Shown here: one piece after another, positions 56,901 through 60,281 of the stretch
Layout: every line of letters starts with the position of its first letter
Position numbering within the stretch: position 1 is the first letter of the stretch
DNA from: Geobacter sp. DSM 9736
GTDB lineage: Bacteria > Desulfobacterota > Desulfuromonadia > Geobacterales > Geobacteraceae
DNA: 64,000 nucleotides
Assembly: GCF_900187405.1 (NCBI RefSeq)
Contig: NZ_LT896716.1
Span: 930,001-994,000, forward strand
Reading direction: 5' to 3'
Notes under the pieces: generated by a model
The model's database searches: none
Seen by the model: only the letters and a program-made list of their open reading frames with translations
Told to the model about the DNA's origin: nothing
Program-made: the position numbers and the translations under genes

Positions 56901-56928
56901 TTGACAAAACCCCATACGGATGTATCAT
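56901..56928 (+). promoter_or_regulatory. Promoter of the riboswitch operon
   Basis: TTGACA (56901-56906), 16 nt, TATCAT (56923-56928). The transcript would start near 56935, just before the first riboswitch. Confidence 0.7.
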
Positions 56929-56947: not shown

Positions 56948-57030
56948 AGACGATAATACTCAACCATCCGCGAGGATGGGGCGGAAAGCCTATAGGGTCT
57001 CTCAGAGACAGCCGGGTTGCCGAAATATCG
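56948..57030 (+). ncRNA. GEMM-I riboswitch 1, cGAMP type
   Basis: The aptamer has the GEMM-I layout: P1b CCATCC-gcga-GGATGG with a GNRA tetraloop, the core GGGGCGGAAAGCC, a second stem GGGTCTC...GAGAC, and GCCGGGTTGCCGAA. The sequence is very close to the Geobacter GM0970-type cGAMP (GEMM-Ib) riboswitch as I remember it. The 3' strand is shared with the following terminator, so ligand binding should prevent termination. Confidence 0.8.
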
Positions 57031-57056
57031 CAAGGATATTCGGCCCCGGCTTTTTT
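57011..57056 (+). terminator. Terminator of riboswitch 1
   Basis: GCCGGG-tt-GCCGAAATATC-gcaa-GGATATTCGGC-c-CCGGC followed by TTTTTT. The left arm is part of the aptamer. Confidence 0.9.
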
Positions 57057-57157
57057 GTTATCTTGATTTTTTAAATTGGAGGGCCTTAAAGCAGGGGGTA
57101 GTCCCCGTATCCTGCCAGACGGGTGAGCCTGAAGGGCATCCCAAACAATTGGTGTTA

Positions 57158-57238
57158 CACGATAATACTTAACCATTCGCGAGGATGGGGCGGAAAGCCT
57201 ATAGGGTCTCCCTGAGACAGCCGGGTTGCCGAATGTCA
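57158..57238 (+). ncRNA. GEMM-I riboswitch 2, cGAMP type
   Basis: A near-identical copy of the first riboswitch, differing at a few positions (CCATTC-gcga-GGATGG uses a wobble pair; GGGTCTCCCTGAGAC in the second stem). Conserved: GGGGCGGAAAGCC and CCGGGTTGCCGAA. The copy lies about 210 nt after the first and its terminator lies before the LysM/L,D-transpeptidase gene. Confidence 0.8.
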
Positions 57239-57264
57239 CCTTGTCAGTCGGTCCCGGCTTTTTT
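57220..57264 (+). terminator. Terminator of riboswitch 2
   Basis: GCCGGG-tt-GCCGA...TCGG-tc-CCGGC followed by TTTTTT. It is the last barrier before the gene at 57350. Confidence 0.85.
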
Positions 57265-57349: not shown

Positions 57350-58660
57350 TTGCCCATGCGCAGAACCGTTGAACTGTCTTCCCTTAATCGGGTCTATCTT
57401 CAAGTTTTGATTATGTTATTCCTATTCCTTAATGGATGCGCCGTTACAAGCAGTGTCAAAGAGCAGATATCATTTGTCCCAACCTACCCTGAAAGCGCTA
57501 TAGAACGAAACCGCTTTTCAGTTGAAAAAGGTGACGACCTGATCGGCAGGTTAGCGATCATGAGGGTAGAAAAGGGAGATACTCTGCCGGATATAGCAAG
57601 GCACTTCAGCCTCGGGATAAACGCTATCAGTGCTGCCAATCCGGGGGTGGACGTATGGGTGCCCGAGGCAGGAGAACGCATCATCCTGCCCCTGAGCTTC
57701 ATCCTGCCGAATGCCCCTCGTAAAGGTATTGTCGTGAACCTCGCCAGCATGAGGCTCTTTCAATATAAAGGGAACGGTGCAGTTTCCACTTACCCGGCCG
57801 GTGTCGGGACCAGGGAACGACCCACACCTACCGGTCAGATGCATGTGAAGCGCAAGGTATCCCGGCCTACCTGGTACGTGCCGGCTTCAATTGCCGAAGA
57901 TTACCGAAAGAAGGGAGATCCCCTGCCGGCGGAAGTCCCGCCGGGACCTATGAACCCGTTGGGAGAATGCGCTCTCTATCTGAGTAAGTCGAGTTATCTG
58001 ATCCACGGTACCAACAAGCCTGCAAGCATCGGGCTTAAAGCTACCAACGGCTGCCTGAGGCTCTATCCGGAAAACGTGAAGACACTTTACGATGAGACTC
58101 CTCTGAATACGCCTGTAGTCATTGTGAATCAGCCATACCTCATAGGTCAGCGCGGTGGAGTCCTGTATATGGAGGCCCATGCACCCCTGGAAGATTCGGG
58201 AGCTTCCGAACTGGACAAAATATTTTCAAAGCTGAGAGAGCTTGAGAAGAAAACGGGACAGACGCTGGACTGGAAAAAGGTTAACGAAGTGAAAGCGGAG
58301 GCCCGAGGGATTCCAGTTCCGATCCTGAATTTAAACGGAGCAAGTGAAACAGAGGCTGAGACTATAGAAATCAAGCACCCGGAGAAGTTGTACGGCAGCC
58401 CTGAAATCCCTGAACTGAAGCTGGAGGGTTGGTATGTTCTCGCTGCCGATGTGCGGGACGAGATCGAGGCTCGGAGAACTGCCGCCATAATCAACCACCA
58501 GGGACCGCCTATCCCGGCAAGGGTGTTGTCGAAGAGCAACGGCTACCGCGTGCTTGCCGGTCCTTTCAATGACATGAATGGAGCCAAGGACGCTATGAAA
58601 CGTTTGAAGATCGATCTGGGAATAGAGGGTATTCTTGTTGAACCGGTAAGTAGCTTATAA
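57350..58660 (+). CDS. LysM / L,D-transpeptidase lipoprotein
   Basis: The TTG start at 57350 (LPMRRTVELSS, first residue Met) follows AAAGG; an ATG at 57356 is the alternative. The 436-residue product has a lipobox (FLNGCAVT), a LysM-like segment (VEKGDTLPDIARHF), then a YkuD L,D-transpeptidase domain with RPTPTGQMHV, LIHGTNKPASIG and the active-site ATNGCLRLYPENVK (Cys about residue 236). A C-terminal SPOR-like segment (GWYVLAADVRDEIEA...RVLAGPFNDMNGAKDAM) follows. It would cross-link peptidoglycan or attach proteins to it at the outer membrane. Confidence 0.9.
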   Translation: MPMRRTVELSSLNRVYLQVLIMLFLFLNGCAVTSSVKEQISFVPTYPESAIERNRFSVEKGDDLIGRLAIMRVEKGDTLPDIARHFSLGINAISAANPGVDVWVPEAGERIILPLSFILPNAPRKGIVVNLASMRLFQYKGNGAVSTYPAGVGTRERPTPTGQMHVKRKVSRPTWYVPASIAEDYRKKGDPLPAEVPPGPMNPLGECALYLSKSSYLIHGTNKPASIGLKATNGCLRLYPENVKTLYDETPLNTPVVIVNQPYLIGQRGGVLYMEAHAPLEDSGASELDKIFSKLRELEKKTGQTLDWKKVNEVKAEARGIPVPILNLNGASETEAETIEIKHPEKLYGSPEIPELKLEGWYVLAADVRDEIEARRTAAIINHQGPPIPARVLSKSNGYRVLAGPFNDMNGAKDAMKRLKIDLGIEGILVEPVSSL

Positions 58661-58759
58661 GCAGGTTTGCAGGGCAATACGAGCGGAAGGGGGTGATTGA
58701 AGAGGGAGAAGTGCTTGTGGTGAACTAAAGACAGAAATTTACAAAAGGAGGAATGAGAG

Positions 58760-59101
58760 ATGAAGAAATGTCTGCTGGTGATTTCTATGCTGCTTGTTTT
58801 GGCTGCCATGACGGGTTGTGCAACTTCTCGTGAACTTGAAAGGGTACAGGCGCAGGAGCAACTGATCGATGCGAAAGCTGAGCGGGCGTTGCAGGATGCA
58901 CAGGCGGCCAAGGCGGCAGCTGATGCGGCGAAGTTGCAGGCAGATGCTGCCGTTGCCCGTGCCGACGATGTTGTGAAGTTGGCGGAGGAAAGGGAAAGAA
59001 TTGCAGCTGAAAAGGAAAGAGTCGCGGCGGAAAAGGAAAGAGTTGCAGAGGAAAAGGCGGCCAAAGCTGAAGCTGCTTTCCGGAAATCGATGCAGAAGTA
59101 G
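58760..59101 (+). CDS. Lpp-like alanine-rich coiled-coil lipoprotein
   Basis: A 113-residue protein with a lipobox (AAMTGCATS) then a continuous Ala-rich coiled coil (heptad pattern from residue 25 on, with EKERVAAEKERVAEEKA). The C terminus is FRKSMQK, ending in lysine as in Braun's lipoprotein, whose terminal lysine is joined to peptidoglycan by L,D-transpeptidases. AAGGAGG precedes the ATG. It lies between two L,D-transpeptidase genes, so it is a natural substrate. It is longer than Lpp (78 residues) and would give a wider periplasmic gap. Confidence 0.8.
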   Translation: MKKCLLVISMLLVLAAMTGCATSRELERVQAQEQLIDAKAERALQDAQAAKAAADAAKLQADAAVARADDVVKLAEERERIAAEKERVAAEKERVAEEKAAKAEAAFRKSMQK

Positions 59102-59122
59102 GCCCTTTGGTGCTGATGATGT

Positions 59123-59143
59123 GGCAGGGTCGCGAGCCCTGCC
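59123..59143 (+). terminator. Hairpin after the Lpp-like gene
   Basis: GGCAGGG-tcgcgag-CCCTGCC lies 20 nt after the stop. No T run follows, so it may be an mRNA-stabilising hairpin, which would raise the level of this protein over its neighbours. Confidence 0.55.
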
Positions 59144-59246
59144 ATATCATCATCCACCAGTCGTATGTCCGGGCATTGTGAATTGCTGCGTTTCTCTAGG
59201 TCAGGCGGATCGTACAACAATATGATCCTTCTCAAGGAATTAGTAG

Positions 59247-60281
59247 ATGAGGAAACCAACAGTATCTCAAGATGCTTTATGCTGCAGAGTCAGGACATCT
59301 TGGGCATGTAGGGGAAAAATAGGGAAAAGGCTAAGCCGACATCTTTTCATGTTCTTTACCTGGGGCCTGATGGCACTTGTCTTTCTGTCGGGGTGCAGCC
59401 GGCTGCAGACCAAACCGCTCTTTCAGGAAGCGAACGACCTCTTCAGTAAGGGAAGCTATCAGGCTTCCCTCGACAAATACGGGGAAATCAGCCGGAAAGA
59501 TCCCGCTGCGGGTGACAGAGTTCTGTTCGAGATGGGCATGATTCACGCGCATCCGAAGAACGAGCGGAAAGACTACCAGAGAGCCTTCGAGTGCTTCGAA
59601 AAAATAGTGATGGATTACCCTGAGAGCGGGTACAGAAAAGATAGCGAAATGATGATGTTTTACATCAACACTGTCACTGTCAGGGACAAGACCATTGCGG
59701 AGCAGGAAAAATTTATTGCTTCACAACAGGCGAGAATTGAGGCCCTTCAGCAGGAGTTAAAGCGCAAGAAGATTGAAGCGGAGAATGAAATACAGAAGCT
59801 GCGGGAGGATATCAAAGCGCTAGAGCAGAAGCGGCTTGCATTCATACTTGCGAACGGGTCAGCTGACAGAATCCAGATTGAAAAAAAGGAACGGCGATTG
59901 ACCTTGTACTCAAAGGGTGAGGTCATCAAAGCTTACAGGATAGCTTTGGGGGGGAATCCGAATGGTCCGAAAGAAAGGCAAGGTGATAACAAAACCCCGG
60001 AGGGGACTTACTACATCGCATCGAGAAACAGGGACAGCCAATATCACCTGTCGCTTCATATTTCCTATCCAAACGAGACGGACAAAAAGCGTGCAAAAGA
60101 ACTGGGTGTTTCACCCGGGGGGAACATCATGATCCACGGGATCAAGAAAGGTTTCTCCTGGGTCGGAGATATGCATACAGGGCTTGATTGGACCAAGGGC
60201 TGCATTGCCGTAACGGACGAGGAGATAGAGGAAATCGCCAAGCTGGCGTCGAACGGGACGGTGGTCGAGATAAAGCCTTAG
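59247..60281 (+). CDS. L,D-transpeptidase with coiled coil
   Basis: The 344-residue product starts with an N-terminal signal with a lipobox-like LSGCSRL (about residues 48-54). A TPR-like helical part (FQEANDLFSKGSYQASLDKYGEI) and a coiled coil follow. The C-terminal YkuD domain has the catalytic histidine in IMIHGIKKG and the cysteine in WTKGCIAVTDEE. It resembles YafK-type enzymes, which in E. coli are the relatives that detach Lpp (DpaA) or cross-link. The neighbour is the Lpp-like lipoprotein. The first 30 residues may not be translated; a start further in is possible. Confidence 0.85.
   Translation: MRKPTVSQDALCCRVRTSWACRGKIGKRLSRHLFMFFTWGLMALVFLSGCSRLQTKPLFQEANDLFSKGSYQASLDKYGEISRKDPAAGDRVLFEMGMIHAHPKNERKDYQRAFECFEKIVMDYPESGYRKDSEMMMFYINTVTVRDKTIAEQEKFIASQQARIEALQQELKRKKIEAENEIQKLREDIKALEQKRLAFILANGSADRIQIEKKERRLTLYSKGEVIKAYRIALGGNPNGPKERQGDNKTPEGTYYIASRNRDSQYHLSLHISYPNETDKKRAKELGVSPGGNIMIHGIKKGFSWVGDMHTGLDWTKGCIAVTDEEIEEIAKLASNGTVVEIKP

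Follow-up and report, generated by a model that had tools for sequence, protein, structure and literature searches.

The window analysed here is a 64,000-nucleotide stretch of the Geobacter sp. DSM 9736 genome. It carries three neighbouring genes, ldt, lpp and yku (genes 1 to 3), downstream of a leader with two tandem riboswitch aptamers (Table 1). The genes lie where the sequence-only reading of this DNA had placed them. That reading also named a riboswitch, and two aptamers do exist upstream, but the region it delimited (57350-60281) leaves them out.

Table 1. Features of the ldt-lpp-yku locus, numbered from the first nucleotide of the window
Feature	Position	Strand	Remarks
Sigma-70-like promoter, TTGACA-16-TATCAT	56901..56928	+	Consensus match only (11/12); ends some 20 nt upstream of aptamer 1
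GEMM-I aptamer 1, GEMM-Ib type	56948..57024	+	Rfam RF01051, 42.1 bits (cut-off 35); A at Vc2-G20 position
Intrinsic terminator 1	57010..57056	+	Stem uses the 3' strand of aptamer 1, then 6 T
GEMM-I aptamer 2, GEMM-Ib type	57157..57233	+	RF01051, 40.9 bits (cut-off 35); A at Vc2-G20 position
Intrinsic terminator 2	57220..57264	+	Arranged like terminator 1 (stem from aptamer 3' strand); z -2.0
ldt	57350..58660	+	Lipoprotein L,D-transpeptidase, LysM + YkuD (HGTN...TNGCLR) + SPOR; ATG 57356 is the probable true start
lpp	58760..59101	+	Long Lpp/OprI-type alanine-zipper lipoprotein; mature form 94 aa; C-terminus ..KSMQK
Hairpin	59114..59152	+	Strong, with 17 pairs and no U-run; follows lpp and precedes yku; z -5.6
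yku (third gene)	59247..60281	+	Lipoprotein: BamD-like TPR, helix of about 73 residues, YafK/DpaA-like YkuD domain (HG...TKGCIAV)

We searched 58 genomes, among them the window's own, and found the three genes adjacent in 29, which excludes a chance grouping of three reading frames. The 29 include one genome (G028) whose ldt and lpp are broken; in a 30th (G031), lpp and yku lie at the end of a contig. A scan of genome contigs found relatives with an alignment as query and none with a single protein. The complete set was present in 46 of 80 named loci, in the order ldt-lpp-yku in 36 and yku-ldt-lpp in 10. Certain named loci come from the same organism as genomes of the other set, and identical Lpp-plus-Yku sets were counted once. 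The broken locus of G028 (L071) and one at a contig end (L072) were excluded from the protein alignments of the sampled set; the ldt alignment covers 15 and the yku alignment 23 of the 28 sequences, and residue counts cover all 28. Genomes with the labels Syntrophales, Nitrospirae and Desulfobacterales also keep the genes together, in either of two orders. This persistence of the set in two orders beyond the riboswitch-bearing lineage is new here.

In the leader, each of the tandem aptamers overlaps its own terminator. Aptamer 1 and terminator 1 fold together with an MFE of -50 kcal/mol (z -5.0), and terminator 1 was absent from the output of a simple terminator scan. Promoter-like sites in the region numbered 4, against a mean of 2.6 in shuffles. 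The Vc2-G20 position, located by counting back from AACC, holds A and not G in both aptamers, on which ground we rejected the c-di-GMP type for them; A at this position is what we take to mark the cGAMP type of GEMM-I. The genome does contain a G-type GEMM-I aptamer at another place. Of the 29 loci fetched from 28 related genomes (two come from G018, one of them cut by a contig end), every one had at least one GEMM-I aptamer upstream of gene 1, and the position was A in 49 and G in 2 of the 51 aptamers upstream of orthologous operons. A crude terminator scan was negative for 5 of these 51 (L045, both of L047, one of L058 and one of L063), and the L060 aptamer was an additional case without a clear T-run. 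In PMC9262584, the Vc2 G20 position is called a selectivity factor, and the pilM cGAMP riboswitch is described as an ON switch with mutually exclusive aptamer and terminator. Among the 20 GGDEF hits of the genome there was one clear Hypr-type cyclase (L180, with GGDEY and Ser at the 348 equivalent); 17 others have Asp, L181 gave no motif match and L185 matched poorly and out of register. The A in both aptamers and the single Hypr-type cyclase support the control by cGAMP that had been proposed, and the two aptamers read as a cGAMP-type riboswitch with predicted ON control. No riboswitch was found with the three-gene set in the genomes labelled Syntrophales, Nitrospirae and Desulfobacterales; cGAMP control of the set thus looks like a lineage-specific addition.

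Two YkuD proteins had been proposed to flank the Lpp-like protein, and Pfam recognised the domain in both (85.6 bits in gene 1, 71.8 in gene 3). Gene 1 also scored for SPOR (38.2) and LysM (21.8), all over the cut-offs, and has a lipobox, ..LNGC. Its start is more likely ATG 57356, since orthologues align from 'PM[CR]R'. It shares the defining features of the LdtA/B/C/E group, a YkuD domain with LysM and HGTN...GC[IVL]R, but is not an LdtE equivalog (170.8 bits against the NF047955 cut-off of 480).

The product of lpp has 113 residues, a lipobox and a C-terminal Lys. It matched the NCBIfam model of Lpp/OprI alanine-zipper lipoproteins, NF040598, with 51 bits (43.1 in the genome search; cut-off 43), and fell narrowly under the gathering score of Pfam Alanine_zipper PF11839 (22.9 against 23.1). 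The lipobox Cys, the terminal K and a C-terminal F-x-[KR]-S-M-x-K were each found in 28/28 intact sampled proteins, and Lys was the last residue in 48/48 of the named set, counting the broken gene of L133. The claim of an Lpp-like protein ending in lysine therefore stands, with the lysine invariant. Mature length leaves a remainder of 3 on division by 7 in 58 of 63 cases, so that it mostly shifts in heptads; this and the shared C-terminal motif are new here. The protein was predicted as a single continuous helix, and its 94 mature residues would span about 14 nm if fully helical. The Lpp of E. coli has 58 residues and is about 8.7 nm long. A second Lpp in the genome was excluded: the protein search gave one Lpp, and there was just a 30.8-bit, below-cut-off match in a 282-aa frame. 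Loci with Nitrospirae, Syntrophaceae or Desulfobacterales in their titles also encode long Lpp proteins.

The third gene has a lipobox, LSGC, and an uncertain start. Its best NCBIfam match was DpaA/YafK (NF040599), with 53.8 bits against an equivalog cut-off of 365. The YafK likeness noticed from the sequence thus holds as a likeness and not as equivalence, and filing the gene as DpaA was rejected as an over-claim. The equivalents of DpaA Lys83, Met133, Ala145 and Cys143 were each present in 28/28 orthologues, and the cleft residues Lys130 and Tyr131 in 0/28; the HG-to-GC stretch has 19 residues in all 28, against 5 in DpaA. Sequence matches included 8ikr (2e-10), whose matched stretch is E. 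coli DpaA sequence, and 7o21 (Bd1075; 5e-4), Pgp2 (7e-4) and Csd6 (0.01). In the AF2 model the catalytic loop is weak, with low confidence, and the best YkuD matches listed by Foldseek were ordinary L,D-transpeptidases. VIA-align gave Z 13.4 for B. subtilis YkuD and Z 13.3 for Bdellovibrio Bd1075 (122 residues, 25% identity), level with others. We did not count as evidence against a DpaA likeness that 8ikr was not among the best 50 Foldseek or best 50 VIA-align matches.

The weak sequence matches to Bd1075, Pgp2 and Csd6 and the structural match to Bd1075, which is named among L,D-carboxypeptidases (PMC10653827), would also suit an enzyme of that kind, shortening tetrapeptides to tripeptides and so removing Lpp donor sites without cleaving the Lpp-DAP bond. 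Lys83 is said to line the mDAP pocket both of DpaA and of Csd6/Pgp2/Bd1075-type enzymes, and the long HG-GC stretch resembles that of aligned Pgp2. However, the D-Ala pocket Trp158 of Csd6, equated with DpaA Met133 (PMC10653827), is replaced by Met in 28/28 gene 3 orthologues, and the sequence scores favour DpaA, so we regard a carboxypeptidase as unlikely. Instead of detaching Lpp, the gene 3 enzyme may act on peptidoglycan itself, by trimming or cross-linking it.

It could also be that the two YkuD enzymes mainly form 3-3 cross-links or anchor other proteins, leaving the rod as a free OprI-like brace between the layers. The closest NCBIfam models of gene 1 (LdtE 170.8 bits, PRK10190 167.8, PRK10260 152.8, all far below their own cut-offs) and the generic L,D-transpeptidases from Foldseek for gene 3 are compatible with such a free rod. 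On the other hand, the F..SM.K end is invariant in the intact sampled orthologues while the middle of the rod varies in length, rod and enzymes are neighbours in two gene orders, and at the position of DpaA Ala145, occupied by Arg in many L,D-transpeptidases, gene 3 keeps Ala (28/28). We consider a free rod distinctly improbable.

The longer the Lpp rod, the longer the coiled-coil arm of the gene 3 protein tends to be (contrast r 0.65 over 62-63 sets). This co-variation is missing for five control lengths and is new here. Lengths were anchored to alignments, which replaced a regex-based measure (gross errors in certain rows; Spearman 0.68, Pearson 0.23). We measured 65 non-identical three-gene sets, of which 62 passed the anchor check (L053 has S for P; L093 and L110 are incomplete); L053 was restored for the control lengths (63 sets), and L133, from the same broken genome as L071, was excluded. 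A by-product is conceivable, in which coiled coils drift with envelope size or lineage-wide expansion and arm and rod have no direct functional contact. Correlation is no proof of contact, relatives were sampled unevenly, removal of the 10 largest contrast products lowered the contrast r to 0.32-0.41, and the rule has exceptions: a rod of 87 goes with an arm of 75 in four lineages, a rod of 80 with an arm of 85 in four others, and L062 combines 94 and 77. Against this, the tree-based contrasts stayed at 0.65-0.70 on three trees, and for the five other lengths in the same proteins the contrast r never exceeded 0.16 in absolute value. Two of these controls had 31 usable rows each, and truncated contigs produced outliers; one control, the Cys-LysM spacing of gene 1, had a raw Spearman of 0.37 (contrast r 0.03), and the mature length of gene 1 gave r -0.04 (sign-flip p 0.065). 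We lean against the by-product while granting it real weight.

The hairpin after lpp recurs in most relatives examined, which is likewise new: 59 of 66 post-lpp regions beat all 30 of their mononucleotide shuffles, and 7 did not, one of these being a tie. The hairpin-core pattern occurred once in the genome, as did its backwards control, which is chance level; the core is therefore no repeated element. The hairpin probably shields the lpp message, which would yield more rod than enzyme.

Taken together, the features that the sequence itself shows (which genes are present, their motifs, the class of the aptamers and their overlap with terminators, the conservation of the set and the co-varying lengths) make it probable that the locus is a self-contained operon for an outer-membrane-to-peptidoglycan tether under cGAMP ON control, with a YkuD enzyme matched to it in reach. 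Transcription from the promoter at 56901 would pass the two aptamer/terminator units; cGAMP would keep the 3' strand of each aptamer in the binding fold, leaving the terminator incomplete, and the three genes would be made. The Lpp-type protein would be lipidated and stand as an upright helical rod, covalently linked to peptidoglycan by the LysM/YkuD/SPOR lipoprotein, which would join its C-terminal Lys to meso-DAP. The TPR base and long helical arm of the gene 3 lipoprotein would place its YkuD domain at wall height, where it would most likely edit the Lpp linkage, by release as DpaA does, or the surrounding stem peptides. The direction of each enzyme's reaction and an effect on periplasm width are what we infer from these features.

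E. coli has comparable parts: LdtA/B/C attach Lpp and DpaA/YafK releases it. The locus resembles E. coli in its lipidated alanine-zipper rod with C-terminal Lys, its LdtABCE-type LysM/YkuD enzyme and its YafK-like enzyme, and in K-12 lpp adjoins ldtE. Unlike E. coli, it has all the genes in one predicted riboswitch operon, its attaching-type enzyme is a lipoprotein in its own right and carries a SPOR domain, its YafK-like enzyme combines a lipobox with a TPR base and a long arm, and its rod has 94 residues instead of 58. The pgcA and omcAHG cGAMP riboswitches are likewise GEMM-Ib, in certain cases tandem, with terminator-based ON control, but they control cytochromes, whereas that of the window would control an envelope tether.

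The earlier reading knew of no description of such a system, which proved too sweeping. In G. sulfurreducens, to which the "operon" wording of PMC6456294 applies, the riboswitch operon GSU0181-0183 is down 16-fold when the cGAMP synthase GacA is missing, and the genes are called "uncharacterized lipoprotein transpeptidases", with no tether reading in the part of that paper available to us (Hallberg et al. 2019, PMC6456294). As in the window, a GEMM-Ib riboswitch precedes lipoprotein transpeptidase genes that enclose the gene of a "murein lipoprotein", the annotation given to GSU0182; we equate the two sets from annotation and context rather than from aligned sequences. A Geobacter Lpp of 99 or more residues is also on record, and in the accessible text no connection is drawn to cGAMP or neighbouring enzymes, and Geobacter periplasm width is said never to have been measured directly (Mandela et al. 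2022, PMC8824477). For this operon, the literature searches made did not find covalent attachment, an attaching or detaching enzyme, or an effect on periplasm width.

Lpp is usually viewed as a constitutive strut of fixed length, and cGAMP is needed by Geobacter for growth on iron oxide particles. We tentatively suggest, and hold as possible rather than probable, that cGAMP sets the spacing between outer membrane and wall, a long tether having co-evolved in heptad steps with an enzyme arm that reaches its attached end; such proteins would be periplasm rulers of 69 to 101 residues across several phyla, one lineage of which would be under cGAMP. At this locus a long Lpp, accompanied by dedicated enzymes, would be governed by an RNA switch answering a messenger tied to iron-oxide respiration in Geobacter. 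The system would allow direct tests of whether cells tune the distance between outer membrane and wall for electron transfer, and its natural heptad length series with matched enzyme arms may serve as a ready set for studying how envelope enzymes find the wall.

The coordinates and gene calls proposed for the three genes in the sequence-only reading stand; the window covers 930001-994000 of a genome of 3.96 Mb in one contig. The product of gene 1 (ldt) is a lipoprotein carrying a LysM, a YkuD and a SPOR domain. Gene 2 (lpp) encodes an Lpp/OprI-type alanine zipper. Gene 3 (yku) codes for another lipoprotein, in which a part resembling the TPR of BamD is combined with a long helix and a YkuD domain. 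The Lpp-like lipoprotein flanked by two YkuD proteins is real, with stronger support than was available from the sequence alone.

Positions of operon features and of features in fetched loci (L) or the window's own genome (G000)
Feature	Position	Strand	Remark
Sigma-70-like promoter	window 56901	+	upstream of two GEMM-I aptamers and three genes
ldt	window 57350-58660	+	gene 1
lpp	window 58760-59101	+	gene 2
yku	window 59247-60281	+	gene 3
Decayed GEMM aptamer	L075:825-911		52 bits, mainly 3' half left
Lpp-type gene	L139:404-664		Methylobacter MAG
GEMM-type match	L099:9520-9596		about 3.2 kb past gene 1 end
GEMM-type match	L087:5211-5291		about 1.8 kb past gene 1 end
Aptamer	L063:4902-4979		G at selectivity position
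Aptamer	L066:4-80		G at selectivity position
Tandem aptamers	L007 1501-1577, L001 1501-1589 (G000:C1:1681420-1681668)		A-type (cGAMP-like), then G-type (c-di-GMP-like)
Tandem aptamers	L008/L009 (G000:C1:232085-232353)		both A-type

Gene 1 aligned with E. coli LdtA, B, C and E, HGTN...GC-x-R included, and differs from them by a lipobox and an additional SPOR domain; judged by homology, attachment of Lpp is its expected activity. For gene 3 the comparison was made with DpaA, the E. coli enzyme that releases Lpp. Lys83, Met133, Cys143 and Ala145 of DpaA were each retained in 28 of 28 gene 3 orthologues, Tyr109 in 26, Gln86 in 23 and Arg108 in 17 (Gln in the window copy), and Lys130 and Tyr131 in none. 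Because Ala145 and Met133 are retained, which PMC10653827 contrasts with Arg in many L,D-transpeptidases and Trp in D-Ala carboxypeptidases, respectively, we favour editing of the Lpp linkage as the probable role of gene 3. We did not file the protein as DpaA, since it is without Lys130 and Tyr131 and its HG-to-GC stretch spans 19 residues, compared with 5 in DpaA. Fold searches with gene 3 pointed to no single activity, B. subtilis YkuD (Z 13.4) and the L,D-carboxypeptidase Bd1075 (Z 13.3) matching about equally well.

The lpp product is hereafter called the rod. All 28 intact rods sampled ended in F-x-[KR]-S-M-x-K, and lysine was the last residue in all 48 Lpp sequences of a named set of loci described below (among the matches listed). 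Mature rods measured 69, 73, 76, 80, 87, 90, 94 or 101 residues over 63 sets, leaving a remainder of 3 on division by 7 in 58 sets and of 6 in 5. Both ends are constant, with mostly whole heptads gained or lost in the middle, as would fit a rod anchored at both ends. An AF2 model gave a single helix over residues 2-112 (mean pLDDT 89). At 0.15 nm per residue, the 94 residues of the window rod compute to 14.1 nm, compared with 8.7 nm for the 58 of E. coli Lpp. According to Mandela et al. (2022, PMC8824477), Geobacter has Lpp of at least 99 residues, and its periplasm width had not been directly measured.

In the model of gene 3, TPR helices are followed by one helix (101-173 in the 315-residue query) and then by the YkuD domain. 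We took the length of this arm as the residues from YPxS, the end of the TPR part, to IEKK, the start of the YkuD domain, and found that it (70-92) tracks the rod (69-101) across 62 distinct three-gene sets (Pearson 0.68). When a tree was built from gene 1 together with the catalytic domain of gene 3, independent contrasts over these 62 sets gave r 0.65; 28 of 33 non-zero contrast pairs had the same sign, and none of 20000 sign flips was as high. With 63 sets, r was 0.66 on the gene 1 tree and 0.70 on the tree of the gene 3 catalytic part, falling to 0.32-0.41 without the ten largest contrast products. For five control lengths (TPR part, catalytic domain, and the gene 1 mature length, YkuD-SPOR spacing and Cys-LysM spacing), the absolute value of the contrast r did not exceed 0.16. 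In several pairs of sister loci both lengths moved in the same direction: rod and arm were 73 and 70 in L060 vs 80 and 77 in L063, 80 and 82 in L076 vs 94 and 89 in L083, and 80 and 82 in L103 vs 94 and 89 in L088. Exceptions were L062 (94 and 77), a clade of four (80 and 85) and four Desulfobacterales-type loci (87 and 75). Rod and arm may have adapted together to envelope size with no direct contact; the simplest reading of the correlated lengths is that the enzyme has to extend as far as the rod's end at the wall.

A hairpin lies 3' of the lpp stop codon, with 17 pairs in the window (z -5.6). It was found again in most relatives examined, its core often near GTGGCAGGG...CCCTGCCAC, and 59 of 66 distinct regions downstream of lpp exceeded all their 30 shuffles. 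The core occurs once in the window's genome, no more than a backwards control. Since no T-run stands behind the window hairpin, stabilisation of the lpp message seems more likely than full termination. T-runs do follow the hairpin in some loci with lpp last, such as L110 and L137.

Among 58 genomes, own included, gene 1 had matches in 53 (many being paralogues), gene 2 in 30 and gene 3 in 44; the three were adjacent in 29, one of these broken. At least one GEMM-I aptamer preceded gene 1 in 29 of 29 fetched loci (28 relatives). In Geotalea toluenoxydans (L071/L133), ldt and lpp are broken, with no single-frame read-through in the assembly. The named set comprised 80 loci kept among the matches listed for the gene 1 profile, Geobacteraceae included; within these matches, 48 also had an Lpp-type gene and 46 all three genes (36 ldt-lpp-yku, 10 yku-ldt-lpp). 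In a covariance-model search of 54 of the 80, gene 1 was preceded by a complete aptamer in 22 loci, which include 21 of the 46 three-gene loci among the matches listed; the decayed aptamer of L075 precedes an intact module. The search gave no aptamer in the other 24 three-gene loci (titles include Nitrospirae, Syntrophaceae, Desulfobacterales and Deltaproteobacteria). Upstream sequence is short in four of these 24: L109 has none before gene 1, L110 almost none before its first gene, and L076 and L096 no more than a few hundred bases each. When 32 loci from beyond the riboswitch set, three-gene loci only in part, were scanned with Rfam, there were no matches. On these results, the three-gene module appears to be older, or more widespread, than the riboswitch. 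The GEMM-type matches in L099 and L087 lie just downstream of the module. Loci with gene 1 and no Lpp-type match were, among the matches listed, mostly titled Methylococcaceae or related methanotrophs. The Lpp-type gene of L139 ends in FKKSMMK, lies upstream of a gene 1 relative and has a hairpin with a T-run behind it.

Both window aptamers carry A at the position of G20 in the Vc2 c-di-GMP riboswitch, which, going by papers of 2015, we take to be the mark of the cGAMP class. A was present in 49 of 51 aptamers upstream of the operon (2 from the window, 49 from relatives) and G in two; the position is described as a ligand-selectivity factor in PMC9262584. Another aptamer of the same genome, L001, has G there, so the contrast is internal to the genome. 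The 3' strand of each window aptamer (GCCGGGTTGCCG) is shared with a terminator, whose 5' half it forms and which has six T; the pilM ON switch is described as built in this way (PMC9262584). One GGDEF protein, L180, combines GGDEY with Ser at the position equivalent to 348, given as the Hypr cyclase signature in PMC6456294, and is the sole clear case among 20 matches in the genome; 17 of the 20 have Asp, one has no motif match and one matches poorly.

The G-bearing aptamers of L063 and L066 precede the orthologous operon and are otherwise GEMM-Ib-like; in L063 the other member of the pair has A. The L007/L001 tandem, possibly a two-messenger leader, precedes a gene whose product looks fibronectin-III-like by eye. 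The L008/L009 tandem lies upstream of a lipoprotein with a CxxCH motif, perhaps a PgcA-type cytochrome.

Contrary to the sequence-only reading, which knew of no description, the cGAMP link of the corresponding G. sulfurreducens operon has been published (Hallberg et al. 2019, PMC6456294), and this was the only relevant open-licence title on riboswitches and transpeptidases in Geobacter. There the riboswitch operon GSU0181-0183, described as "uncharacterized lipoprotein transpeptidases", goes down 16-fold when the cGAMP synthase GacA is missing. In PMC11934962 and PMC7962754, the expression tables annotate GSU0182 as "Murein lipoprotein"; beyond the papers cited here, we found no GSU0181, GSU0182 or GSU0183 locus tags in the open-licence literature. 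Nor did we find there a paper joining riboswitch and murein lipoprotein in Geobacter, or Lpp, coiled-coil, transpeptidase and Geobacter. Searches on cGAMP, Geobacter, periplasm and peptidoglycan returned only cyclic-dinucleotide and phage-defence titles, and for Lpp, periplasm width and length coevolution only Mandela et al. was relevant by title among the open-licence matches listed. What is new here is the reading of the operon as a tether, with comparative support, together with the spread of the module beyond loci that have the switch and the match of rod and arm in heptad lengths.
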